IMG/VR virus record: IMGVR_UViG_3300044729_002795
Coordinates: 1 to 31,724 of that record
Length of the DNA: 31,724 nt
Source: a virus
Direction: 5' to 3' (one strand)
In this document: piece after piece, positions 869 through 27,797 of the stretch
How positions within the stretch are numbered: the stretch's first letter is position 1
Layout: the number at the start of each line of letters is the position of its first letter
The notes under the pieces: model-generated
Database searches by the model: none
What the model saw: only the letters and a program-made list of their open reading frames with translations
Told to the model about the DNA's origin: nothing
Position numbers and translations under genes: made by a program

Positions 869-3800
869 TAGATTCCAGAGTAGTCGCGCACATCCTTGCT
901 GTTGCGCATCCCAGCATACGTCGAGTTTCTCGCCCTTTGCAACAGGGCGGCATTGCTCTTGCGAAACGTGGACTCCGTAACGTAGCGCTCGCCCCTTTCC
1001 TCTTTGACGGTGTAGCGCAGGTCGAGCACACCCTCGCTCGGCTCCCTCATGCCGCGCAGTTCGGCAGCCTTGTCAACCTTGCTCTGTGGTACCACGCTAC
1101 CAACCATCCCAGGGAAGAAAAATTCGGGGCCCTTCTCCCCGACCACGTACCCTTCCCCTGGCTTTGTGGTCCCGCCATTGGCGAAGAAGCCGCCGAAAGC
1201 AAAGCTCGGGGAGAAGCCTGGGATCAAGGCCGGCGCAGCGGCACCCAGGAGCGACGAGGCGAAGCTGCCGCCGCCGCCTCCGCCGCCACCGCCCACGACA
1301 CCCGAGAGCACCCCTGCTAGCTGGCGCTGAAGCAGGCTGGTGAGCTGCTGCTGTGCGGCGTCCGCGAAGCTCCCGGCGATGTTCCTGAGCATTTCGCGGC
1401 CAACGTCCTCGATCTTTTTCGTGCCGCTGACAATATCGACTAGCCCATTAGTAAGGGAGCCGGAGATCGCGTTCGATACATCGACAATGTTCTTTTCGAG
1501 ATTCTCCCAAACGAGCTTCTGGCTTTCGAGCAGGTTTGTCCTGTTGGCGAGGTCGGTTGCTTTTGAGGTATCGCCGTCGAAGTCGCGCATTCCCTGCTCA
1601 AACGCCCGCGCCCCTCCGCCGACGAAGCCAGCGCGAATACCGGCGCCGACGAGCGAAGTGTCACGTTGCAGCTCATTAATCTGTCTTCTGAACTCGTTTT
1701 GCTTGCGCAGCTCCTCTGTCTCGGCAACAAGGCCGCTTAGCTTCTGGCGCTGTGCTTCATCTGCCTGCTGATACAGCGTTGACGCCAAAAGTAGCTCGAC
1801 GTTGCTCGCCTTCAGTTCGCCGCGCTCCAGTGCAATTGCTTGCGCTTTTTCGACTGCGAGCGTCTCTTGCAGTTGCAAGACCTCTGAGCGAATGCGATCC
1901 TGATTCTGAAGCTGATTGTTCAGCTCGATGTTCTTGCGGCGCTGCTCCTCTTCCTTTTTGGCGATGTCAACTGCAAGGCCAGCTTGCTCATTGATCTGCT
2001 TCGTGGCAGCAACAAGCTCTTGCGGGTTGTATTGCGTCTTCGCTCTGGTGAGTGCATTGACGCGATCCTTCTCGATTTGCGTCAGCCTGGCGGCGGCCTC
2101 GGCCTGTCCGTCGGCTACGGCAGCGGCCTGATCGCTCAGGCCGATCGCCTGCTTCCTTGCCTCGATCTGCCGCTGCAGTGCATCGGCCTGCTGTTGCAGT
2201 TGCGGAAGTTGATTGTTTTGCAGAATCTGCTCGATCTGCCCAAGCTCGACACCTTTCTGCCTGAGCTTGATCTGATCTTCGAGGATGCGCTGAGCCTCCT
2301 TCTCCCCGCCCGCCAGGCTTGCACCGGCCGCCATGCGAGCCGCGTTCGAGGGCGCAGCGGAAGGCGTGGGGCCGATCGGGACGCCTCGGAATGTTGGCGC
2401 CGGGACGTTGCTGATCTGCGCGGCGGCGCTGGCTTGGGGGCCGGCCTTCCCAGCGGAGACTTTTAGGCTTTCAAGAATAAACTTAAGCGGCTCAAGAAGT
2501 TTCCCTGCCTGGTCGCGCAGTTCATAATGTAAATGAGTATTTGCCGCGTCTGGCGCAACAGTGGCGATACGCTGACCGGCCATAACGCGCTGGCCGGCGC
2601 CGACTCCGGGCAGGGTGTGACCATATACACCCTGCATCCCGTCGTCGTATTTAATGACAACCGCCCCACCGACGCGCCCGAAGCCGCTTGGGTAAGATTG
2701 AGTAATGATCCCGGCTCGACGCGCATGGATCGGATCTCCAACGTCGAGCCCGAGGTCCCTGCCGGCATGAAGGCGGCCTCGACCGTAGCCGACGCCTTCG
2801 TTTATGTTCGGCCCGCCTCTTGTGCCGGGGAGCATGTTTCCAATGCCACCCACCGAACCTTTGCCCATGGCCCCACCGCCAGTAGCGCCCGCCCCCGCAG
2901 GAGCGCTACCACCCGCGCCCATGTCGGGCAGTGTCGCCGCCTGCCGCATGTAGTCGGCAGACTCTCTGGAGCGTTGCAGAACATAGTCCGCAACTTGCAT
3001 CCTGTAGTCTTCTACCGACCTAGTGTAAGCGAGCTTGCGGCGCTCAATATCTTCGATCTCGCGTGCATTCGTGCGCTTGTAGTCTTCTGCGTCCCGCCCG
3101 AGCTTCACCAGCGTCAGTTCAAGCCGCCTGCGCGACTGCTCAATATCCGCTTCGCCCTCCTTCCTCGTCCGCATTACTTCGCGGACATTGCTTAACAGTT
3201 GCTGCTCGAAGCCAACTGCCGAAGAGAATGCGCCACGCGCACCGAGATCACCGCGCTCAATACGGTTCTGCGTCGCGCCGCGAGTATTCTCGATCTGCTT
3301 CTCAAGCGCTTGTTGCCTGAGGTCAAAGATTTCGCGCTCTTTTTTGTAGGAGTAGTCTGCGATTTCTCGATTGAGAGTCGCGCCATCGCGTTGCAAGTCA
3401 TGCGCCTGCCTCTGCAGCTTGAACGCTTCACGGTACGCGGACTTGATATCATCCGCCGCTTTGCGCGATTCATCGATTCGAGCGCCTGCATCCCTGAAGG
3501 CATCCTCAGCGGATGGCGCGGGCCGGCCAGAGGAAGAGGCAATGGCCTTGTCGATTCGTTTCTGAATCCCGGATCGCGGAACTTCCCCTATGTCAGTGAG
3601 CTTGCCGGTAAATGGATTGAATCTGTAGTTGCGGCGATTGTCTAAATCCTGCCCGCCGCCTCGGATGCTATTAATTAGGCTGACAATATCATTCAGTACA
3701 ATCGTGAAACCGATGATCCCAGGAATCACAAGTCGCTGTAGGTCGCCGGCAAGGATGGCCGAGGACTCTTGCAGTCTCTTTTGCTCAGTATTTAGCGCGT

Positions 3801-13432: not shown

Positions 13433-14767
13433 ATGCCAGTCCAGACTGAATTACGCCGGAGCGGCGACATTGTTGCCGGCAGGAATCAGCTATCGCTGAG
13501 GCCGGCCCAGGGCATGATCTTCAACGATCGCAGGCGCTTCCGGGTGGTCCTGGCAGGCCGGCGTGGCGGAAAGACGGTGCTCGGGGGCGTCGAGCTGCTT
13601 CGAGGGGCCGCTGAGGTGCCTGGGGTCTACTACTACGTCGCCCCTACCTATCGCATGGCGAAAGACATCGCCTGGGATACATACAAGAAGATCATCCCCG
13701 AGCGCTGGATTCGGAAGAAAAACGAGTCGAACCTGAGAATTGACCTGATCAACGGCAGCAGCATATACCTCAAGGGGTCGGAAGACCCCGACGCACTACG
13801 CGGCCCCGCGTTGAACGGAGTCGTGCTCGATGAGTGCGCCTTCCAGGAAGAGTACACCTGGCGTTCTGTCATTCGGCCGGCGTTGTCGGACAGGGGTGGC
13901 TGGGCGCTATTTACTACTACTCCATCGCCAGAGGGTACTGCGGGATGGTTTTATGAAATGATCTTACTGCTCAAGAATGCCGACCTCGCCGACCCAGGCC
14001 TTGAGCGCCTCGATCCGCAGCAATGGACGCTGTACGAGTACACGTCATTGCAAGGCGGCAACATCCCATTGCACGAAATCGAAGAAGCTCGCAAAACACT
14101 CGCTAAGGACGTGTTCGAGCGCGAGTACGAAGCTAAGATTTTGTCGAATACAGGACTTGTTGTCTCCTGTTTTTCAATGCTCAACGTTGATTCGACTGTC
14201 GAAGACGATCCCGAGCTACCGCTTTACGTCGGAATCGACTTCAACAACGACCCGCTGACCGCAATTTGCGCAAACATCGTCAGGGAAAGGGGAAAACCCA
14301 AAGAATTGCGCGTTTTCGCGGAAATGAACCTCAAAGGAGCGACGACATGGGATCTTGCTGAGCAACTTATCGACGTTTATGGCCTGAAGCGGCGTATTAT
14401 CGCCTGCCCAGACCCCACGGGTAAGCGTAAACAGACATCCGGCGTCGGGGTGAGTGACTTGCAGATCCTGCGCAAGGCTGGAATCGAGGTTTACGCCCCC
14501 GAGTCACCCTATACCACTGCCGACAAGATTCGCACCGTAAACGCAGCACTGCGCACAGCCGACGGGGAAGTACATACGAAGATTCACTCAAGCTGCCGAG
14601 AGCTTATTAAGTCATTCAGGACGCTTGGATATGCCGAGGGTACGCGGATGCCAAACAAGAAACTAGGCGTCGACCATGCTTTCGACGCCTTCGGGTATCT
14701 CGTGCTTGGCAAGTTCAACCTGACAAAGGGCCTGAACGGCTCTCGAACCGAGCACATTATCTACTAA
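13433..14767 (+). CDS. terL: Terminase large subunit (ATPase/nuclease)
   Basis: This 444-residue packaging motor has the expected domains. The ATPase has Walker A AGRRGGKT (41-48), NGSSIYLKG (107-115), Walker B GVVLDE (129-134), and the coupling motif TTTP (161-164). The RNase H-like nuclease has acidic residues in YVGIDF (Asp269), ACPDPTG (Asp327) and GVDHAFDAFGY (Asp414). The N-terminal LSLRPAQGMIF resembles the conserved start of this family, so I keep ATG 13433 rather than the internal Met28. It is on the strand opposite to portal and small terminase, which is unusual. Its stop overlaps the stop of the convergent zinc-ribbon gene. Confidence 0.95.
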   Translation: MPVQTELRRSGDIVAGRNQLSLRPAQGMIFNDRRRFRVVLAGRRGGKTVLGGVELLRGAAEVPGVYYYVAPTYRMAKDIAWDTYKKIIPERWIRKKNESNLRIDLINGSSIYLKGSEDPDALRGPALNGVVLDECAFQEEYTWRSVIRPALSDRGGWALFTTTPSPEGTAGWFYEMILLLKNADLADPGLERLDPQQWTLYEYTSLQGGNIPLHEIEEARKTLAKDVFEREYEAKILSNTGLVVSCFSMLNVDSTVEDDPELPLYVGIDFNNDPLTAICANIVRERGKPKELRVFAEMNLKGATTWDLAEQLIDVYGLKRRIIACPDPTGKRKQTSGVGVSDLQILRKAGIEVYAPESPYTTADKIRTVNAALRTADGEVHTKIHSSCRELIKSFRTLGYAEGTRMPNKKLGVDHAFDAFGYLVLGKFNLTKGLNGSRTEHIIY

Positions 14768-15860: not shown

Positions 15861-16577
15861 ATGAACAACCAACTCTTCGGCCTTCACAGCACTCCGTCGG
15901 GCGCTCTCCTTTCGCAGGGCGCTCTCCTTTCGCAGGGCGCTCTCCTTTCGCAGGGCGCTCTCCTTTCGCAGGGCGCTCTCCTTTCGCAGCAAGAAATCCT
16001 CAGCGATCCCAAGCGCTTTTGCCTTGTTGCGGCCGGCCGGCGGTGGGGCAAAACGACTTTCGGTGTTCGTAAACTTTACGATTCTGCAATGAGTGGCGGG
16101 ACCGCAACCTACTTTCATATCTCTCCTTCTGTTATGATGGCAGAGCTGGCGTACAAGTGCTCCATGGAGCTTTCGCCCGGATGGAGGCATATCGAGAGCA
16201 GCCGTACTGTTCACGCTCCCAACGGCTCCCGCGTTGTCTTTATGAGTCAACAAGAGGCGTTTAATGTCGATCGCTGGAGAGGGCATAGCGTCTCGGGTGT
16301 TGTAGTGGACGAGCCCTGGATGTGTACTAATCGCCTTATTGGGCCTGTCTGTTTTCATATAATGCCTTCTCGTGCATGGCTTTTACTGGCTGGGACGCCA
16401 CCATGGAATCACCGTAAATGGCTTAGGCGCCCTCGCCTTGCTGCTAGACTTGCGGCTATTCGCTTAGGTTTTGACCCCTCGGATGTTGCCGTCTATTTTT
16501 GTTTCAATGAAAGCGGCGTTGATCATGCCTTGGACGCTTTCAGGTATGCCACAACTTTAAGCGCTTACGGTAGTTGA
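15861..16577 (+). pseudogene. Internally deleted terminase-like ATPase with hexapeptide repeats
   Basis: This 238-residue frame carries Walker A AGRRWGKT (58-65), NGSRVVFMS (121-129), Walker B VVVDE (147-151) and LAGTPPW (176-182). It then jumps to VDHALDAFRYA (220-230), which aligns with GVDHAFDAFGY at the end of terL. About 200 residues, including most of the nuclease, are missing. The N-terminus has five copies of GALLSQ from a tandem 18-base repeat. The frame is open throughout and has its own promoter, so it may be a decayed copy or a retained ATPase-only derivative. Its sequence differs strongly from the window's own terL, so it is more likely acquired than duplicated in place. Confidence 0.7.
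15901..15990. repeat. 18-bp tandem repeat, five units
   Basis: The unit GCGCTCTCCTTTCGCAGG occurs five times without interruption; only the last base of the last unit differs. It is in frame in the terminase-like gene and encodes GALLSQ. Unit number can change without breaking the frame. There are no spacers, so it is not a CRISPR array. Confidence 0.97.
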
Positions 16578-20436: not shown

Positions 20437-21066
20437 TTAGACAGCAGTGCCATCCTCAGTGTAAAGGCATTCTCCAGCAATAACAGACTCCTTGACCCGT
20501 TCTTCGCTTGTCTGGTATTCATACTCACCATTAAGCATGGAATAGTAGTCTTGTAAAAGCTCAAGCCGGAACTCTTTCGTTAAATCCTGCGCTTCATCTT
20601 CGCGCTCAAAAGAATCGCGCCAGTCAACAGGCCCCCAGTCCGAGTAGTATTCAGGATCGTCCGCCAGCTCAGCTTTACGCCATTCCCCTAACGCTTTTCC
20701 GTACGCTCGCACGTACCCGCGCGCAGTCTTAAGGGTATCGCAATCCCCGCCGTGATGCTTACGAATAAGCGAGCAGCAATCGAGCAGATCTTCCGTCAGC
20801 TCACCTTCAATGCTGCGCTTATTGCCTAGGTCGAACCCGTTAATGCAAAGACCAATCGTCTTGGCATCCTCGTAAATATGCTCCCACCATTCGTGGTCTA
20901 CATTTGTCTCCCAGTTCTCTTGCAAGATTTTCCCTTGCACTTCCTCGCCAAGCTCGCTAAAATTATACAGCTTACGGGTAACAACAGATTCCTGATACCC
21001 TGCAGGAGGTACCGAAGTAGTACCTTCAGTCCAGCTAACGGTCGTGATGCGTTGCACGATTGCCAT
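20437..21066 (-). CDS. Conserved phage protein (209 aa)
   Basis: I chose ATG 21066 (MAIVQRITTVSWTEG). The longer frame to 21105 runs through the leader hairpin toward the promoter. The key segment is YNFSELGEEVQGKILQENWE, then EWWEHIYEDAKTIGLCINGF and CSLIRKHHGGDCDTL. I recognise 'y.F.EL...vq.k.l......d.eWwe.iyeDA..iGl.i..fd' as a widespread phage family annotated as hypothetical or antitoxin-like. The protein is acidic and helical. It has its own promoter (element 5) and leader hairpin. Confidence 0.7.
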   Translation of the reverse strand: MAIVQRITTVSWTEGTTSVPPAGYQESVVTRKLYNFSELGEEVQGKILQENWETNVDHEWWEHIYEDAKTIGLCINGFDLGNKRSIEGELTEDLLDCCSLIRKHHGGDCDTLKTARGYVRAYGKALGEWRKAELADDPEYYSDWGPVDWRDSFEREDEAQDLTKEFRLELLQDYYSMLNGEYEYQTSEERVKESVIAGECLYTEDGTAV

Positions 21067-21074
21067 TGTGTGAT

Positions 21075-21089
21075 CCGGCTTGCTGCCGG
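21075..21089 (-). promoter_or_regulatory. Leader hairpin before start codon, copy 2
   Basis: The minus strand reads CCGGC-AGCAA-GCCGG, then ATCACACA, then ATG 21066. The hairpin plus spacer is identical to copy 3. Confidence 0.75.
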
Positions 21090-21105
21090 TCGTTTCAGCA
21101 AACAT

Positions 21106-21169
21106 ACAATAGCACGAAAAAGGGGCAAGCGTGGCACGCTCACCCCTGAAGGCTTAACAGTTTGTAAGG
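21106..21169 (-). promoter_or_regulatory. Regulon element 5
   Basis: On the plus strand, GCTTAACAGTTTGTAAGG (21152-21169) lies 11 bases from the perfect palindrome AGCGTGGCACGCT (21128-21140). Sixteen bases further is the complement of TATTGT (21106-21111), read as TGCTATTGT. It drives the 209-residue gene. Both boxes are identical to those at 21940-21981. Confidence 0.75.
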
Positions 21170-21591
21170 TAGCTTCTCTCACAGGTGGCCATGGTAGCGA
21201 GGCCGGGCACTCGCAGCCTGAGAGTATCGCTACCCGTCCATGCCTCCCTGGCTTTGCCTTGGCAAGTCTTGTACCATTGGTATTTGACCTGAGATAGAAA
21301 GTAAGGCAGGTGAGTAAATACAATCATTATGGCATGAAGCCTGCTAGCCGTAGTTCTCGTTTGCCAGCCACAATCGCTGATCCATACCGTCTGCTCTGCC
21401 GGCCTGATTGCGGCAATCTCGCTACCGTGAAGCCTGACGCTGATGATACGCTGATAGCCGATCGTGTGAGCGATGCCATGATGAGACTGTTCAACAGTGG
21501 TATTTCCTGACTTGAAATAGACGCCATCATAGTCAGCCTTGCCAATAAGATCATTAATGGCACTGATCATCTGCTCTTCGATTTTACGCAT
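21154..21591 (-). CDS. Conserved phage protein (145 aa)
   Basis: The N-terminal hundred residues follow a family I recognise in many phages: MRKIEEQMISAINDL, then YFKSGNTTVE, VRLHGSEIAAI and ISDCGWQTRTTASRLHAIM. The usual family ends about there. The remaining 45 residues (YQWYKTCQGKAREAW onwards) look unrelated and end inside regulon element 5, whose TTAA supplies the stop codon. The tail may be a readthrough extension gained when the promoter was inserted. The function is unknown. Confidence 0.65.
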   Translation of the reverse strand: MRKIEEQMISAINDLIGKADYDGVYFKSGNTTVEQSHHGIAHTIGYQRIISVRLHGSEIAAIRPAEQTVWISDCGWQTRTTASRLHAIMIVFTHLPYFLSQVKYQWYKTCQGKAREAWTGSDTLRLRVPGLATMATCERSYLTNC

Positions 21592-21599
21592 TGTGTGAT

Positions 21600-21614
21600 C
21601 CGGCTTGCTGCCGG
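21600..21614 (-). promoter_or_regulatory. Leader hairpin before start codon, copy 3
   Basis: The minus strand reads CCGGC-AGCAA-GCCGG, eight bases before ATG 21591. It is identical to copy 2 and lacks an adjacent regulon promoter, so this gene is probably co-transcribed with the 21640-21879 gene. Confidence 0.75.
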
Positions 21615-21639
21615 TCGAAAAGGAGTTAAAGGGAAGGAG

Positions 21640-21879
21640 TTAAAGAGGTAGTGCGTAGTGAGTGTGAGCACCTGGCGCGATGTGCGGCTGGTAGAAAGTA
21701 ACGCCTATGCGCTTCAGTGTCCCGTCCCTCCTGTTGCCGGCATAATAAATGGCATGGCTGAAAAATTGATCCGTCATACTCCAACCCAGATCACGCAATC
21801 TCTTGCTCATGCTTGTTTCGCCGCAAGGCATTTGCACAAGGTCTGAAACATCGATTGGCGTAGTAGACTGCTGGCTCAT
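21640..21879 (-). CDS. Hypothetical protein (79 aa)
   Basis: The product begins MSQQSTTPIDVSDLVQMPCG and contains TSMSKRLRDLGWSMTDQFFS, ending HTHYALPL. The 'M..RL..LGW' helix could be part of a small helix-turn-helix or an adaptor, but this is not sure. It follows leader hairpin copy 4 and regulon element 6. Confidence 0.5.
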   Translation of the reverse strand: MSQQSTTPIDVSDLVQMPCGETSMSKRLRDLGWSMTDQFFSHAIYYAGNRRDGTLKRIGVTFYQPHIAPGAHTHYALPL

Positions 21880-21887
21880 TGTGTGAC

Positions 21888-21902
21888 CCGGCTTGCTGCC
21901 GG
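21888..21902 (-). promoter_or_regulatory. Leader hairpin before start codon, copy 4
   Basis: The minus strand reads CCGGC-AGCAA-GCCGG, eight bases before ATG 21879. One base of the spacer differs from copies 2 and 3 (GTCACACA against ATCACACA). Confidence 0.75.
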
Positions 21903-21918
21903 TCGTTTCAACAATGCA

Positions 21919-21981
21919 ATCCTACAGCCTCTTGCCCTGAGCGTGGCACGCTTGCTCTTAAACGCTTAACAGTTTGTAAGG
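21919..21981 (-). promoter_or_regulatory. Regulon element 6
   Basis: On the plus strand, GCTTAACAGTTTGTAAGG (21964-21981) lies 11 bases from the perfect palindrome AGCGTGGCACGCT (21940-21952). Fifteen bases further is the complement of TAGGAT (21919-21924). It drives the 79-residue gene and probably the 145-residue gene after it. Confidence 0.75.
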
Positions 21982-22043
21982 TGTCCCTCATCGCATGAGG
22001 TTTTGGTTGCAGTTCGCCCCTGGCGTGACCTGTTGCCGTATTC

Positions 22044-22241: not shown

Positions 22242-22265
22242 GTCTGTGCGTTAAGAGGCGTGTCC

Positions 22266-22559
22266 GTGTCCGCGAGCGAGCCGCAGCAGGACGGGCCGTT
22301 AAGGGCCTGGGCACCGTCGATTATTGGGGTAGCTGCCCTGCTGCTTTCTGCCATGCAATCGCACCACGGCGGAAGTAGTAAGCTAATCGATCAGCTACAG
22401 AAAAACAATGAAGAGCTTGCCACGGTCGGCGCAACACTAAAAATCGTGTGCGAGCGACTTGAGAAGAAGGATGAAGCAGATAAAAAGCGGGACGATCGCC
22501 TGACAGAAGTAGAAACTACCCAGGCGCGGATTCTTCAACGCCTGGGCATGGATCCTTGA
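22266..22559 (+). CDS. Membrane-anchored coiled-coil protein (possible lysis-related)
   Basis: The start is GTG at 22266, seven bases after AAGAGG; an in-frame GTG at 22260 would have almost no spacing. The 97-residue product has a short N-terminal segment, one transmembrane helix (APSIIGVAALLLSAM, about residues 14-28) and a long coiled coil (LIDQLQKNNEELATVGATLK to the C-terminus). This layout fits an inner-membrane spanin or a holin accessory protein, but no cysteine or lipobox partner is visible nearby. It is the only plus-strand gene in its neighbourhood and converges on the 31-residue peptide gene. Confidence 0.65.
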   Translation: MSASEPQQDGPLRAWAPSIIGVAALLLSAMQSHHGGSSKLIDQLQKNNEELATVGATLKIVCERLEKKDEADKKRDDRLTEVETTQARILQRLGMDP

Positions 22560-22562
22560 ATG

Positions 22563-22658
22563 CTAGCTGGTTAAAACCGTAGCAACACAGAAAAAGGCAA
22601 GGCCTAGTACAATCACTAGAGTTAGCCCTAGAAAGAATGAAAGCAGCAAGTCTTCCAT
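22563..22658 (-). CDS. 31-residue single-span membrane peptide after the haloperoxidase gene
   Basis: The ATG lies one base after the haloperoxidase stop (TAACATG), so translation is probably coupled. The product is MEDLLLSFFLGLTLVIVLGL followed by AFFCVATVLTS: almost one transmembrane helix with a short acidic N-terminus and one cysteine. Its size resembles small thylakoid or cytochrome complex subunits, but I cannot match it to a known one. It could anchor or regulate the haloperoxidase, or act as a small holin-like peptide. Confidence 0.6.
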   Translation of the reverse strand: MEDLLLSFFLGLTLVIVLGLAFFCVATVLTS

Positions 22659-22659
22659 G

Positions 22660-23916
22660 TTACGGCGTCCCGTCAAGTACGATCAGCTTGCCATCCACAC
22701 CAAAGAATGCCGTTATTCCAAGGAATTGAGGGCTAGTAACATTTTGGCGCCTGAGATACTCTAGCGCATACTTCTCCCCAATCCGCAACCCGCTCGTCAT
22801 ATCGCGCTGATAATGAATGCCGTCGAATCCGCGACCCACAGTCATGTGCCACATCATAAGATCGATCTCTTCGTGTAGATGCTCGATCCCAAGTGATGGT
22901 ACGGGGCCATTAGCGAACCAGGCTTTAAGTATGGTTCCCCATACGCCGGCATCGACAGCGTGACCGCTAGGGTCGGCACTATGAAGTGGGCATCCTGCGG
23001 CCAGGGGCGTCGGCAAGTAGTGCCCGATCTGATCAACAATCCATCCCGCCAGTCTCAGGAAAGCCTCGTTCAGCTCTCCCCGGCAGGCCTGAGGCCACAG
23101 CTCCTCAGGGCGCGGCCGGCGAAAAACAGTATATTTCAGGTGCCAGGCATGCTCTCCTGCTGCGAGCATGACCTGTCCCATGGCCCCAGCCATTTCCCAT
23201 ATCCCACCAGGGCCAACAAAGGCGTCTTCGTTTTTAGCGACAGGGAAACGTGTGGACCTAGGGGCATTGGCTGCCACCAGGATCTCCATAACGCATCGCC
23301 CGATGAATCCGGGTGAATCCTGATGCGCGAAACTCCCAATATCCCTTAGGGTGACAGGGATTGCAGCTCCCGCCGCTAGTCGCTGCGGTTCAGGAATCCG
23401 CCCACTCTGCAGGGCTTCCCATGCTGCATAATTGCCCCCGTATTCACCGATGCGTGTGCGAGTGGCGAACGAGAATGGCTCACCCCAACCCGTCGGGATC
23501 TTGGCGTAAATCAGTTTTCCGATTCGATCAGCACCGACCCTCGCCGGATTCATGCGGAATAGGCCATTTGGTCCGTCAGCCATGAGTAGTCGATTGTTCT
23601 TGCCGAAGTCGGCAAGCATCCGTGCCCCGCGCATGGCAATGGGGTGCTCATTGATGCCCGCAAGCGGCACGTCCCGAAGCAAGACGATCAGCCCGAGCAG
23701 GGCCAGTTCAGCCGCAGTCCGCACACTTTCATTAGATGGCGTTCCGGGGACTGGTGGGGTATCGGTATTGCCGTACCCTGCTTGTGGTGACACGATGCGG
23801 CGCGGGCCTGGCAGGCTCATCGCATTCATTTTGTCATGCCGGAGAGTACGATTAGGTTCTGCTAAGGCATCGGCTAAGGCATCGGCAGAATGCCCTTTGG
23901 TGAAAAAGGTTGACAT
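22660..23916 (-). CDS. Vanadium-dependent haloperoxidase
   Basis: This 418-residue protein of the PAP2/haloperoxidase superfamily oxidises halides with hydrogen peroxide. All vanadate-site elements are visible: HLKYTVFRRPRPEE (Lys261, Arg269), PSGHA (Ser317, Gly318, His319), and GRGFDGIHYQRD (Arg362, His368). SFAHQDSPGFIGRC earlier in the chain is typical of bacterial family members. I chose ATG 23916 (MSTFFTKGHSADAL), since the longer frame to 23982 would cross the promoter. There is no signal peptide, so it is probably cytoplasmic in the infected cell or carried in virions. It has its own regulon promoter (element 7) and a coupled membrane peptide gene. Halide preference cannot be read from sequence. 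Confidence 0.92.
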   Translation of the reverse strand: MSTFFTKGHSADALADALAEPNRTLRHDKMNAMSLPGPRRIVSPQAGYGNTDTPPVPGTPSNESVRTAAELALLGLIVLLRDVPLAGINEHPIAMRGARMLADFGKNNRLLMADGPNGLFRMNPARVGADRIGKLIYAKIPTGWGEPFSFATRTRIGEYGGNYAAWEALQSGRIPEPQRLAAGAAIPVTLRDIGSFAHQDSPGFIGRCVMEILVAANAPRSTRFPVAKNEDAFVGPGGIWEMAGAMGQVMLAAGEHAWHLKYTVFRRPRPEELWPQACRGELNEAFLRLAGWIVDQIGHYLPTPLAAGCPLHSADPSGHAVDAGVWGTILKAWFANGPVPSLGIEHLHEEIDLMMWHMTVGRGFDGIHYQRDMTSGLRIGEKYALEYLRRQNVTSPQFLGITAFFGVDGKLIVLDGTP

Positions 23917-23940: not shown

Positions 23941-24002
23941 ACAATAGCACTGATCCCGTAGCGTGCAACGCTCAGACCCCAAGGGCTTAACATTTAATCA
24001 CA
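23941..24002 (-). promoter_or_regulatory. Regulon element 7 (haloperoxidase promoter)
   Basis: On the plus strand, GCTTAACATTTAATCACA (23985-24002) lies 12 bases from AGCGTGCAACGCT (23960-23972), followed by the complement of TGCTATTGT (23941-23949). Read on the minus strand it gives GTTGCA, 17 bases, TATTGT: a well-spaced -35/-10 pair. The start codon is about 24 bases after the -10 box. Confidence 0.8.
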
Positions 24003-24261
24003 AAGCAGACTTTCGCATGAACTCCTCAAACGTCAGCGAGCGAGCTGGTTTCGCCTCCTCTGCCGGCACCCAGCACCATTTGCCACCATCAAACCAGCCG
24101 ACGCGATCATCGACGCGATCTGCGGGCTGTGCTGTGCGAGCGGTGCGTTTTCGCCACCATCCGCGATCAGCATAGAAAATCTGCCCGATCGGAATGTTCT
24201 TGAAACGCTGTCGTCTCGATCCCAAATCGGCGGGTCGGGTGCTGGGGTCAATCAGTTGCAT
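23998..24261 (-). CDS. Hypothetical protein (87 aa)
   Basis: I chose ATG 24261 (MQLIDPSTRPADLGSR), which overlaps the HNH-like gene by 14 bases. The product has a 'F..ip.Gq.FyaDRGWWRK' strand region and WFDGGKWCWVPAEE, a compact aromatic-rich fold, then a helix SLTFEEFMRKSAL. I recall similar 'f..ip.G..F......w.K' small proteins in phages, with unknown function. It is the last gene of the long operon and its end overlaps the haloperoxidase promoter. Confidence 0.6.
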   Translation of the reverse strand: MQLIDPSTRPADLGSRRQRFKNIPIGQIFYADRGWWRKRTARTAQPADRVDDRVGWFDGGKWCWVPAEEAKPARSLTFEEFMRKSAL

Positions 24262-24754
24262 CGCTCTCCTCTGCCGGCTCCTCCGGCTCAGGTACCCAGC
24301 TCTTGAGCGCCTGGCGCTTGGCCGCGATGGCCTCCTGCCGGCTGTCGAACTGCCCAACAACGCGGTCCCTGATCCTCGCTGTCCACAGCCCCGAGGTCCG
24401 GGAGTAGCTCAGGCCGCCCCTCAGCCACATAGGCCGTGCCGCGGCCCTGCCGCGCCTGTAGCGGCGCGTGAAGACCTCGGGGGAGAGGCTGAGGTTGGCG
24501 AGGCGCAGGTTCAATGGGTCCCCATCGAGAGGCGTGACGTGCTGAGCAGGGGCGGTGCCATGATACAACGCCCAGACAATAGCCCCAGCAGGATAGTACT
24601 TCCCATCAATGCACAGCACGGGCCTCCCCTTCGCCGGCAGGAATACGGTATCACCCGCACGGCGCGGCCCGCGACTGATAAGATACTTGATGGAACCGTC
24701 GATTGGGTTGTAGTGATAACGCTCTCTGAGGAGCGCGATAGGGGGGAGGGTCAT
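24248..24754 (-). CDS. HNH-endonuclease-like protein, first motif altered
   Basis: This 168-residue protein starts at ATG 24754 in ATGA. It follows the layout of phage HNH endonucleases with an AP2-like C-terminal part: YHYNPIDGSIKYL, a glycine-bearing strand region (GRPVLCIDGKYYPAGAIVWA), HVTPLDGDPLNLRLANLSL, then GLWTARIRDRVVGQFDSRQE and AIAAKRQAL. In the family the sequence before the tryptophan is usually 'aHrlvW'. Here it is AGAIVW, so the first catalytic histidine appears missing. It may be inactive as a nuclease and kept as a DNA-binding protein. It lies inside the early operon without a break. Confidence 0.75.
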   Translation of the reverse strand: MTLPPIALLRERYHYNPIDGSIKYLISRGPRRAGDTVFLPAKGRPVLCIDGKYYPAGAIVWALYHGTAPAQHVTPLDGDPLNLRLANLSLSPEVFTRRYRRGRAAARPMWLRGGLSYSRTSGLWTARIRDRVVGQFDSRQEAIAAKRQALKSWVPEPEEPAEESDATD

Positions 24755-26139
24755 GGGCTGGTTTCCCCCCTGTTGGCGGCGGGCACCGGGAGCGCCCAGT
24801 GGGGGAGCCAGTGGGTAGGGCGCCAAGGATTATTCAGGGCACTCGCTAAGTCGAGCTTGCGCCAATGGTCGTAAATGCCATCGTTGGCCGCCCACCAGCA
24901 CATCCCCTTTTCGCCAAGATCCTCCGCCTCCGGCAGCCGCTCACTCACCGGCACCGGCTGCACCGCAGCGCCGCCCCAGCGGGCAAGCTCCTTGCGTGCC
25001 AGGTCAAGGGCAGTATCGAAGTCTCCATACCACATAAAACGCTCGCCCTGGTCACCGACTGCTACGTGCTGATCCCATAGGCGATCCTTCAGCGCGTACC
25101 ATTCTTCATCGCTGATTTCTGCCCCCGCCGACACCGCCCGCACCGCAGCGCCGCCCCAGCGGGCAAGCACGGCGCGGGCGTAAGCAAGGGCGCCGGTGTT
25201 GAGTGAGACCCTGTAAAGGCCGGGTCCTACCGGCGTGCCATACGACGCCAACCGCGACACTGTGGCCAGATCGTCTCTGAACTGCTGGGGCATCAGCTCT
25301 AGCAGCTGCTCATCCGTCAGCCCCGCCTCGCGGGTGGCGGCCGGCGGGGTGGCTTGGCGCAGCAGGGCAGCGGCGCGGATGCTCATGCGGGCCCAGTCGG
25401 GGCGGTTTACGTCGTTGGCGTACTCGTAGTGACGCTCGAGCCAGATCGCCAGCGCCTCCCGCTCTTTCATATCCGCCGGCTCTACTATCGGCGCGGTGGT
25501 GGCGCCCACGGCCGGCGGGGTGGCCAGGGCGGCAATAGCAGCATCGGCAATCTCCCCTACCCGGTCGTCGTCTTCAGCTATCGGGCTGAAATCATCTTGT
25601 CCCATTGTTCCGATTCCCCAAGCGCTCCACACACGCAGGCAGTCGTATGCACTACCTCCCAGTGCGTCTGCTATGGCCGCCTTCACCTGTTCGCGAGTGG
25701 TGTCCGGTGCGGCCGGCGGGGTGTAGTGACCGCGCCATCTCTGCAGCGCCCGGCGGATGCGTGGCAATTGGCTTGCTCGTAGGCCCAACTCAAGATCGAT
25801 TTCAGTCAGCGCTTCTTCCGCCATCTCCAGCGCCCGGATCAGCTCCGGCGGCACGATCGGCGTGGTGGGGCAGCTACAAGCGCCGGGAAGTGGGCAGCCG
25901 CGAGGTTCTAGTGGTGGGGCCGGCGGGGTGGCCAGGGCAGCGCGGGTGCAATCCACTACAGCCTGAAATCTTGGCCCGTCGTTGGTGTCGATAACGTCGT
26001 CGTCAATAGCCTGTAACAGCTCCTTGCACAACGCCCTCCAGTCGGGCGCGGCCGGCAACGGCGTGGGGTCAGTCATTGGGGGTCTTTGTGGTGGATACAC
26101 AGTTAGATTCTTACCAAAGAATTCATCGGGGTCACTCAT
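24751..26139 (-). CDS. Modular phage protein with C-terminal DUF551-like domain
   Basis: I chose ATG 26139 (MSDPDEFFGKNL), overlapping the upstream stop by eight bases. The 462-residue protein is built from helical blocks joined by Pro/Ala linkers (ATPPA, TPPAA). Blocks include REQVKAAIADALGGSAYD, DMKEREALAIWLERHYEYAN and LTDEQLLELMPQQFRDDLAT. The end VPVSERLPEAEDLGEKGMCW then THWLPHWALP is a DUF551-type ending common in phage accessory proteins. The linker DNA (GGCCGGCGGGGTGG) and a 29-base exact repeat suggest block exchange. The function is unknown. Confidence 0.7.
   Translation of the reverse strand: MSDPDEFFGKNLTVYPPQRPPMTDPTPLPAAPDWRALCKELLQAIDDDVIDTNDGPRFQAVVDCTRAALATPPAPPLEPRGCPLPGACSCPTTPIVPPELIRALEMAEEALTEIDLELGLRASQLPRIRRALQRWRGHYTPPAAPDTTREQVKAAIADALGGSAYDCLRVWSAWGIGTMGQDDFSPIAEDDDRVGEIADAAIAALATPPAVGATTAPIVEPADMKEREALAIWLERHYEYANDVNRPDWARMSIRAAALLRQATPPAATREAGLTDEQLLELMPQQFRDDLATVSRLASYGTPVGPGLYRVSLNTGALAYARAVLARWGGAAVRAVSAGAEISDEEWYALKDRLWDQHVAVGDQGERFMWYGDFDTALDLARKELARWGGAAVQPVPVSERLPEAEDLGEKGMCWWAANDGIYDHWRKLDLASALNNPWRPTHWLPHWALPVPAANRGETSP
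24960..24988. repeat. 29-bp exact direct repeat, copy 1
   Basis: These bases are identical to 25140-25168, in frame at a period of 180 bases, and encode LARWGGAAV twice in the modular protein. Confidence 0.9.
25140..25168. repeat. 29-bp exact direct repeat, copy 2
   Basis: This is the second copy of 24960-24988. The segment between the copies is one 60-residue module. Confidence 0.9.
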
Positions 26140-26879: not shown

Positions 26880-27667
26880 CGCTGCGCCTCCCGCTCCAGA
26901 TCGGCGGCGACATAGTAGGAATGGCCCACGCTGCGCAGCCATTTGGCCACTGCGAAGAGTACGGCTCTAGTTGCAGGGCAGGGGCGGCCAATGATCGGCT
27001 CGTTCCCGATGATGTCGGAGATGGTATCCACCAGCCCCCCATCGCCCGCCGGGGCCTGGTTGGGCTCGGGCTCGGGGGTGGGCTCCGCCATCAGCTCACG
27101 GATCGCCCGGCGCAGGGTGTTGAGGATCTCAGGGATAACGATGGGGCGCAAGGCCTCCACCATGTCTAGGGCGATGCCGTGCAGCGTCTGGAAGTCGTCC
27201 GGCTCGGGCTCGGGGGTGCTGCGCTGCTCGGCGCGGCCGGCTGCTAGGCCACGCTGGAAGCCGTGGTCATGTAAGGCCCGGTGAGCGGCCTCGGCCTGAT
27301 CCAGCAGCTCACCCTTCCATCCTGCGTCCGGCTGCGCATGTCTCCTTGCCTTCAACATCACCTCCCACAGCTCATCATCCGACGGCACCGCCGCTGGCGG
27401 GGTGGGGATGGTGGTGGGGGGCACTTGGACAGGCGCTACCCGCTCCGCCTCCAGCGCCTCGACGCGGGAGAGTATATCAAGACTCGCCTTGACTGTATGC
27501 TCGATAGCCATGGCGAGCGCGTTAAACCGTTCTTCGTGCCTTTCAATGTGAGCCGAAAAAGCGCCGTCCATTTGATTGAGCCTGATGTCGTTCCTTGCAA
27601 TGCGAGCTAAATCCTCGCTCAAGCAGGCATCCACCGAGTCAAACCTAGCCCTGGTAGCTTCATCCAT
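26876..27667 (-). CDS. Modular coiled-coil protein of unknown function (263 aa)
   Basis: I chose ATG 27667 (MDEATRARFDSVDACLSEDL); it overlaps the end of the small membrane protein gene. Residues 1-75 form a coiled coil. A Pro/Thr linker (PPTTIPTPPAAVP), a helical block with ELWEVMLKARRHAQPDAGWK, a second linker (EPEPDD) and a C-terminal block (PATRAVLFAVAKWLRSVGHS, YYVAADLEREAQR) follow. The linkers and block ends resemble those of the 24751-26139 gene product, so the two seem to share an assembly logic. The function is unknown. Confidence 0.6.
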   Translation of the reverse strand: MDEATRARFDSVDACLSEDLARIARNDIRLNQMDGAFSAHIERHEERFNALAMAIEHTVKASLDILSRVEALEAERVAPVQVPPTTIPTPPAAVPSDDELWEVMLKARRHAQPDAGWKGELLDQAEAAHRALHDHGFQRGLAAGRAEQRSTPEPEPDDFQTLHGIALDMVEALRPIVIPEILNTLRRAIRELMAEPTPEPEPNQAPAGDGGLVDTISDIIGNEPIIGRPCPATRAVLFAVAKWLRSVGHSYYVAADLEREAQR

Positions 27668-27797
27668 CGTTGGTTTCGCGGGGGAGAGGAGAGGAGAGTA
27701 GTAAGCCCGCCCCGACAATCAGCAGTATAACTGCGTACAGGGGGGTGGCCGTTGATCCTGCGAGCAGGAACATAATTCCTGCTAAGAAACTTCGCAT
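27660..27797 (-). CDS. 45-residue two-span membrane protein
   Basis: This small gene lies between two overlapping genes: its start (27797) is 16 bases inside the end of the upstream gene and its stop overlaps the next start by eight bases. The product is MRSFLAGIMFLLAGSTATPL, then YAVILLIVGAGLLLSSPLPR, then ETNDG: two hydrophobic helices with a short turn and a charged end. A small holin or membrane modulator is possible. The tight packing in the operon supports a real gene. Confidence 0.65.
   Translation of the reverse strand: MRSFLAGIMFLLAGSTATPLYAVILLIVGAGLLLSSPLPRETNDG

Follow-up and report, generated by a model that had tools for sequence, protein, structure and literature searches.

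A strain-variable, predicted single-helix membrane micropeptide directly behind a haloperoxidase-like gene of a probable cyanophage

When a very short reading frame starts one base behind an enzyme gene of a phage, does it encode a partner of that enzyme, or a peptide that acts by itself? The question is raised by a virus sequence of 31,724 bases (IMG/VR record IMGVR_UViG_3300044729_002795, positions 1 to 31,724; this whole stretch is called the window below), in which a haloperoxidase-like gene is followed by a 31-codon frame. The features at this junction are:

22660..23916, minus strand: vanadium-haloperoxidase-type gene of 418 aa, ATG at 23916, assigned by profile match and motifs
22656..22662, minus strand: TAACATG junction (stop, one base, start), the same in the closest relative, G001
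22563..22658, minus strand: gene of the 31-aa single-helix micropeptide, ATG at 22658-22656 and TAG at 22565-22563, swapped for another helix-coding frame in G001
22574..22655, minus strand: exchanged block, from the first base past the ATG to 11 bases before the frame end, with no alignable similarity to G001

The TAA of the haloperoxidase gene (22662-22660) is followed by a single C and then by the micropeptide ATG, a gap of +1, and inspection by eye showed nothing like a Shine-Dalgarno sequence at the usual distance before this ATG. The 31 codons (minus strand, 22658-22563) translate as MEDLLLSFFLGLTLVIVLGLAFFCVATVLTS and end in the stop codon; the product is almost entirely a single membrane helix (best 19-residue Kyte-Doolittle mean 2.73; GRAVY 2.04). 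Coordinates and translation thus confirm what an earlier note on this DNA had claimed, namely a start one base past the haloperoxidase stop and a 31-residue product that is nearly one helix. We found no homologue of the micropeptide in Pfam, PHROGs, phage records (tblastn) or IMG/VR (degenerate DNA scan), and neither the window allele nor the G001 allele matched a PDB chain (such as a subunit of a solved complex, e.g., a photosystem) at E up to 10. A scan for the junction GAYGGNACNCCNTAACATG returned eight stretches, just one of which adjoins a haloperoxidase gene (tblastn).

Judged by its profile matches and motifs, the upstream gene product is haloperoxidase-like, with halide oxidation as its putative activity. 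PHMMER matched it to a red-algal bromoperoxidase (E 1.2e-11), and a profile built from the three phage enzymes matched ten PDB entries, all of them vanadium bromoperoxidases or haloperoxidase, with 1qi9 as the best (E 5e-28). The vanadate-binding residues K261, R266-R269, S317-G318-H319, R362, and H368 are invariant in the three phage enzymes, and the motif residues are matched in 7qvw within the aligned stretches. The phage enzyme shares the Lys, Arg, Ser-Gly-His, Gly-Arg, and His motifs of the vanadium-dependent haloperoxidases (1qi9, 1qhb, 7qvw), but it is shorter (418 versus about 600 aa) and phage-borne. A PAP2 match in the G001 enzyme was weak (E 4e-4, below the cut-off), and an AlphaFold2 model of the enzyme from three sequences was too poor for use (mean pLDDT 34). 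The enzyme is rare in phages: there were no matches in 50,697 phage records, only two other carriers (G001 and G029) were found among the IMG/VR contigs, and the literature searched contained no description of a vanadium haloperoxidase in a phage. To our knowledge, no coupled membrane peptide accompanies the algal vanadium haloperoxidases.

The closest relative, G001 (IMGVR_UViG_3300042321_002425, 49,964 bases), is circularly permuted with respect to the window, its ends meeting inside the window's 26.87-27.07 kb, and carries an enzyme 95% identical to that of the window (38 synonymous and 20 nonsynonymous codon differences). In G001 an identical TAACATG opens a frame of 41 codons (MLTLIQLIMAFLAVLAISLVLIVLAFVVYFFIHLIIRIITS), after which the stop and the bases beyond it again agree with the window; the 41-aa product is also a membrane helix, yet it cannot be aligned with the window micropeptide. 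The borders of the difference are sharp: a run of 61 identical bases stops exactly at the ATG, and similarity returns 11 bases before the frame end and continues through 62 identical bases, with flanks of 300 bases that are 97% and 98% identical. Alignment of the two alleles was no better than that of shuffles, for the protein (p 0.17) as for the DNA (p 0.16). The unit exchanged between the two phages is the frame itself. We also considered homology of either allele to a 34-aa peptide of G009 that likewise ends in LTS, and rejected it as not significant by shuffling. Upstream of the haloperoxidase gene, G001 contains an extra inserted gene of roughly 180 aa (L002:2301-2835), and this insertion joins at a CCCCTCCAATG start context, making it another exchange at a start codon.

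The micropeptide frame is very probably a genuine coding gene, small and unannotated. Selection for a membrane peptide is the best explanation for two sequences that cannot be aligned and yet are both hydrophobic between a shared start and a shared stop. It could be argued that the frame is untranslated or functionless, a piece of T-rich DNA between convergent genes that is open and hydrophobic by chance; only two sequences are at hand, neither with homologues, and a T content of 40-43% does push hydrophobicity up. We consider this very unlikely, since in both sequences an open frame runs from the shared ATG to the shared TAG, and the borders of the exchange fall at the start and near the stop. 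The degree of hydrophobicity points the same way: the window and 17 related contigs together contain 2,501 frames of 25-60 aa that begin with ATG, of which six (about 0.2%) reach a hydropathy of 2.73, and among open shuffles, which control for the composition of such DNA only partly, the observed values were reached by 65 of 20,000 (window) and 9 of 20,000 (G001), i.e., 0.05-0.3%. T occupies codon position 2 in 60% of the codons of the window frame and 70% of those of the G001 frame, compared to 40% and 43% T overall; with two alleles for this slot, no dN/dS or substitution test is computable. An RNA terminator or a conserved RNA at the junction was rejected as well: the window frame lacks a terminator-like hairpin and has no Rfam match, and no fold is common to both alleles (the sense-strand folds differ in structure, with z-scores of -0.9 in the window and -2.1 in G001, and the opposite strand scores about 0). 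If such frames are coding, tiny membrane genes may be recognisable without any sequence conservation, through exact exchange between near-identical genomes that keeps the start, the stop, and the helix.

The third phage with the enzyme, G029 (IMGVR_UViG_3300043395_002712, 49,542 bases), was found through terminase relatives, and its haloperoxidase is 29% identical to that of the window. The gene lies in the same genomic slot, after homologues of the window genes at 24248-24826 and 23998-24360, and faces a convergent gene, as it does in the window. Three further window features enter here:

22260..22559, plus strand: convergent gene of about 99 aa (GTG start proposed), an N-terminal helix followed by a coiled coil (by eye)
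20437..21105, minus strand: gene at one side of the accessory island; where relatives have an empty site, it adjoins the gene from the opposite side
23998..24360, minus strand: gene at the other side of the accessory island, a homologue of which also precedes the G029 haloperoxidase

In the window, 3 bases lie between the end of the convergent gene and the micropeptide stop. G001 encodes an identical convergent protein, all six codon changes being synonymous and none nonsynonymous, and in G029 a gene of the same architecture occupies the same position, with no link to that of the window found by BLAST. The haloperoxidase and the convergent helix-plus-coil gene thus occur together in three phages (the window, G001, and G029) despite enzymes that are only 29% identical between the lineages; this pair may be a real functional unit, and is a better candidate for one than the enzyme with the 31-aa peptide. 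In the enzyme-free relatives G008 (19214->19278) and G025 (17458->17374), the two flanking genes are found within about 65-85 bases of each other, and this empty site suggests that the enzyme, micropeptide, and convergent genes are part of an accessory island. The nearest isolates by portal protein are cyanobacterial siphophages (cyanophage S-2L first, 34% identity), and a relative of Kyanoviridae Gp96 lies at window 21154-21591; together they make a cyanobacterial host most likely. A vanadium-haloperoxidase-type enzyme would then sit in a cyanophage accessory island beside a conserved convergent helix-plus-coil partner, and this pair may merit more attention than the micropeptide.

G029 also bears directly on the question of partnership. 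At its locus (L143) the convergent gene is at 1604-1906 (plus strand) and the haloperoxidase gene at 1903-3246 (minus strand), so that the enzyme stop (1903-1905) overlaps the convergent stop (1904-1906) and leaves no room for a peptide. Similarly, in two full-length bacterial homologues (L163 and L164), which have a similar F.RFDG motif at the end, none of the short frames that begin in the 60 bases past the stop is strongly hydrophobic. The earlier note had proposed a membrane anchor, a regulator, or a small subunit acting with the peroxidase, a reading in which hydrophobicity alone would be under selection. The tight stop-start junction is indeed retained in both closest phages, an anchor helix could tolerate sequence change, and overlapping or closely spaced gene pairs encode subunits of complexes unusually often (PMC10666635). 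Nevertheless we regard a partner of this kind as unlikely: the peptide is missing beside the G029 enzyme in the same slot and beside both bacterial enzymes, its alleles are unalignable where the enzymes are 95% identical, and the enzyme start has no evident signal or helix of its own (by eye). An obligate subunit or anchor was rejected on the same grounds, as the peptide is not present wherever the enzyme is and lacks sequence conservation to match the enzyme's. Of the original proposal, then, a dedicated anchor or subunit is not supported, and a regulatory or other membrane-acting role is still compatible with the data; the outcome in related phages is mixed, in that the shared junction and a hydrophobic peptide are present in G001, down to the stop, whereas G029 lacks the hydrophobic frame. 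The micropeptide gene is very probably exchangeable, and the peptide is not a constant component of the enzyme.

A lysis-timing element, pinholin- or antiholin-like and acting with the convergent helix-plus-coiled-coil protein, would also account for a single short helix whose immediate neighbour is a small helix-plus-coil gene conserved with the haloperoxidase. Single-helix holins, pinholins, and antiholins likewise are small helix peptides encoded beside another small membrane gene. Here, however, no adjoining endolysin gene was found next to the micropeptide, the neighbour is on the opposite strand, and the protein it encodes is unchanged between two phages with completely different peptides and is present without any peptide in G029. 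In addition, G001 has a likely lysis module elsewhere, with an L,D-transpeptidase-like gene and small helix proteins (by eye), and the micropeptide matched no holin family in Pfam or PHROG. Known pinholins are longer than the micropeptide. We judge this role to be even less probable than that of an enzyme partner.

We favour, by a modest degree, a reading in which the membrane micropeptide is translationally coupled, varies between strains, and acts alone on host membrane functions; translation, coupling, topology, and function are all predicted. Efficient reinitiation by ribosomes is confined to overlaps or very short gaps (PMC10666635); the +1 gap is within this range and so fits coupling. 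Considering the junction together with the published work on reinitiation, ribosomes that end at the haloperoxidase TAA would most likely restart one base on at the ATG, and the peptide and the enzyme would thereby be made together. The gap resembles the very short stop-start distances of described termination-reinitiation pairs (PMC10666635, PMC6728339), although those are typically -4 or -1, and in the present case the coupling is predicted and the downstream gene is exchangeable. Once made, the peptide would insert into the host membrane, probably N-out/C-in, an orientation suggested by N-terminal acidic residues in one allele and a C-terminal arginine in the other. The slot between the two convergent genes would carry different, unrelated helices, or none, depending on the strain. 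Such variation between close strains fits a stand-alone membrane action better than an anchor or subunit; with low confidence, we infer that the peptide's likeliest role would be to act independently on some process of the host membrane, for example by keeping a second phage from entering, by inhibiting a membrane protein of the host, or by tuning the integrity of the membrane.

Known membrane proteins offer partial parallels. Phage superinfection-exclusion and immunity proteins, e.g., T4 Imm, are small, membrane-located, accessory, and strain-variable, and the known ones are longer than the micropeptide; the likeness is in size, predicted membrane location, accessory status, and strain variation, and no sequence relation was found. 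As with the unannotated small membrane microproteins of phages and bacteria, the product is below 50 aa, has one helix, is missed by gene finders, is poorly conserved, and adjoins or overlaps annotated genes. What sets the present case apart is its position immediately behind an enzyme gene and the complete swap of the frame between nearly identical genomes that retain its start and stop. A bolder proposal, which we hold to be doubtful, is that these cyanophages possess a fast-swapping slot with fixed start and stop, where one single-helix micropeptide replaces another as a whole and is translated through reinitiation downstream of the haloperoxidase. If true, the slot would work as a cassette system for peptides that act on membranes, whose production would be tied to that of an oxidising enzyme during infection; these peptides might be factors for host takeover or for strain-specific exclusion.

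Closely spaced single-helix micropeptides are, by their predicted products, a recurring feature of this phage group: in sister phages, unrelated ones lie closely spaced (-4 to +8 nt) behind other genes. Other coupled examples are found in G009 (behind a 118-aa gene), in G036 and G040 (behind a poly-alanine gene), in G001 (behind a short frame), and at window 27773. The last of these (27660-27773, minus strand; 37 aa, MFLLAGSTATPLYAVILLIVGAGLLLSSPLPRETNDG) starts 8 bases past a 61-aa gene and has a near-identical copy in G001; small helix frames resembling it (likeness by eye) occur in G008, G009, G036, G043, and G029. The coupled micropeptides of G036 (C1 24424, minus strand) and G040 (C1 6631, plus strand) are each 32 aa long (L149 and L150). 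Between them, eight of the 11 changed codons are nonsynonymous and 10 of the 11 fall within codons 3-15, leaving a hypervariable first half and a nearly identical second half, a pattern which suggests that such peptides may change fast throughout the phage group.

Two kinds of unit are repeated before small genes of the window: a hairpin-like unit, CCGGCAGCAAGCCGG, before their start codons (21064-21101, 21589-21626, and 21877-21914), and a palindrome unit, AGCGTGGCACGCT (21128-21170 and 21940-21982). It is possible that these units serve as shared promoters or as recombination points for gene exchange. Elsewhere in the window, a 238-aa frame (15861-16577, plus strand) carries ALLSQG repeats in tandem and, after them, a partial match to terminase (phrog_2, 7e-8); it lies beside the full terminase gene at 13433-14767.
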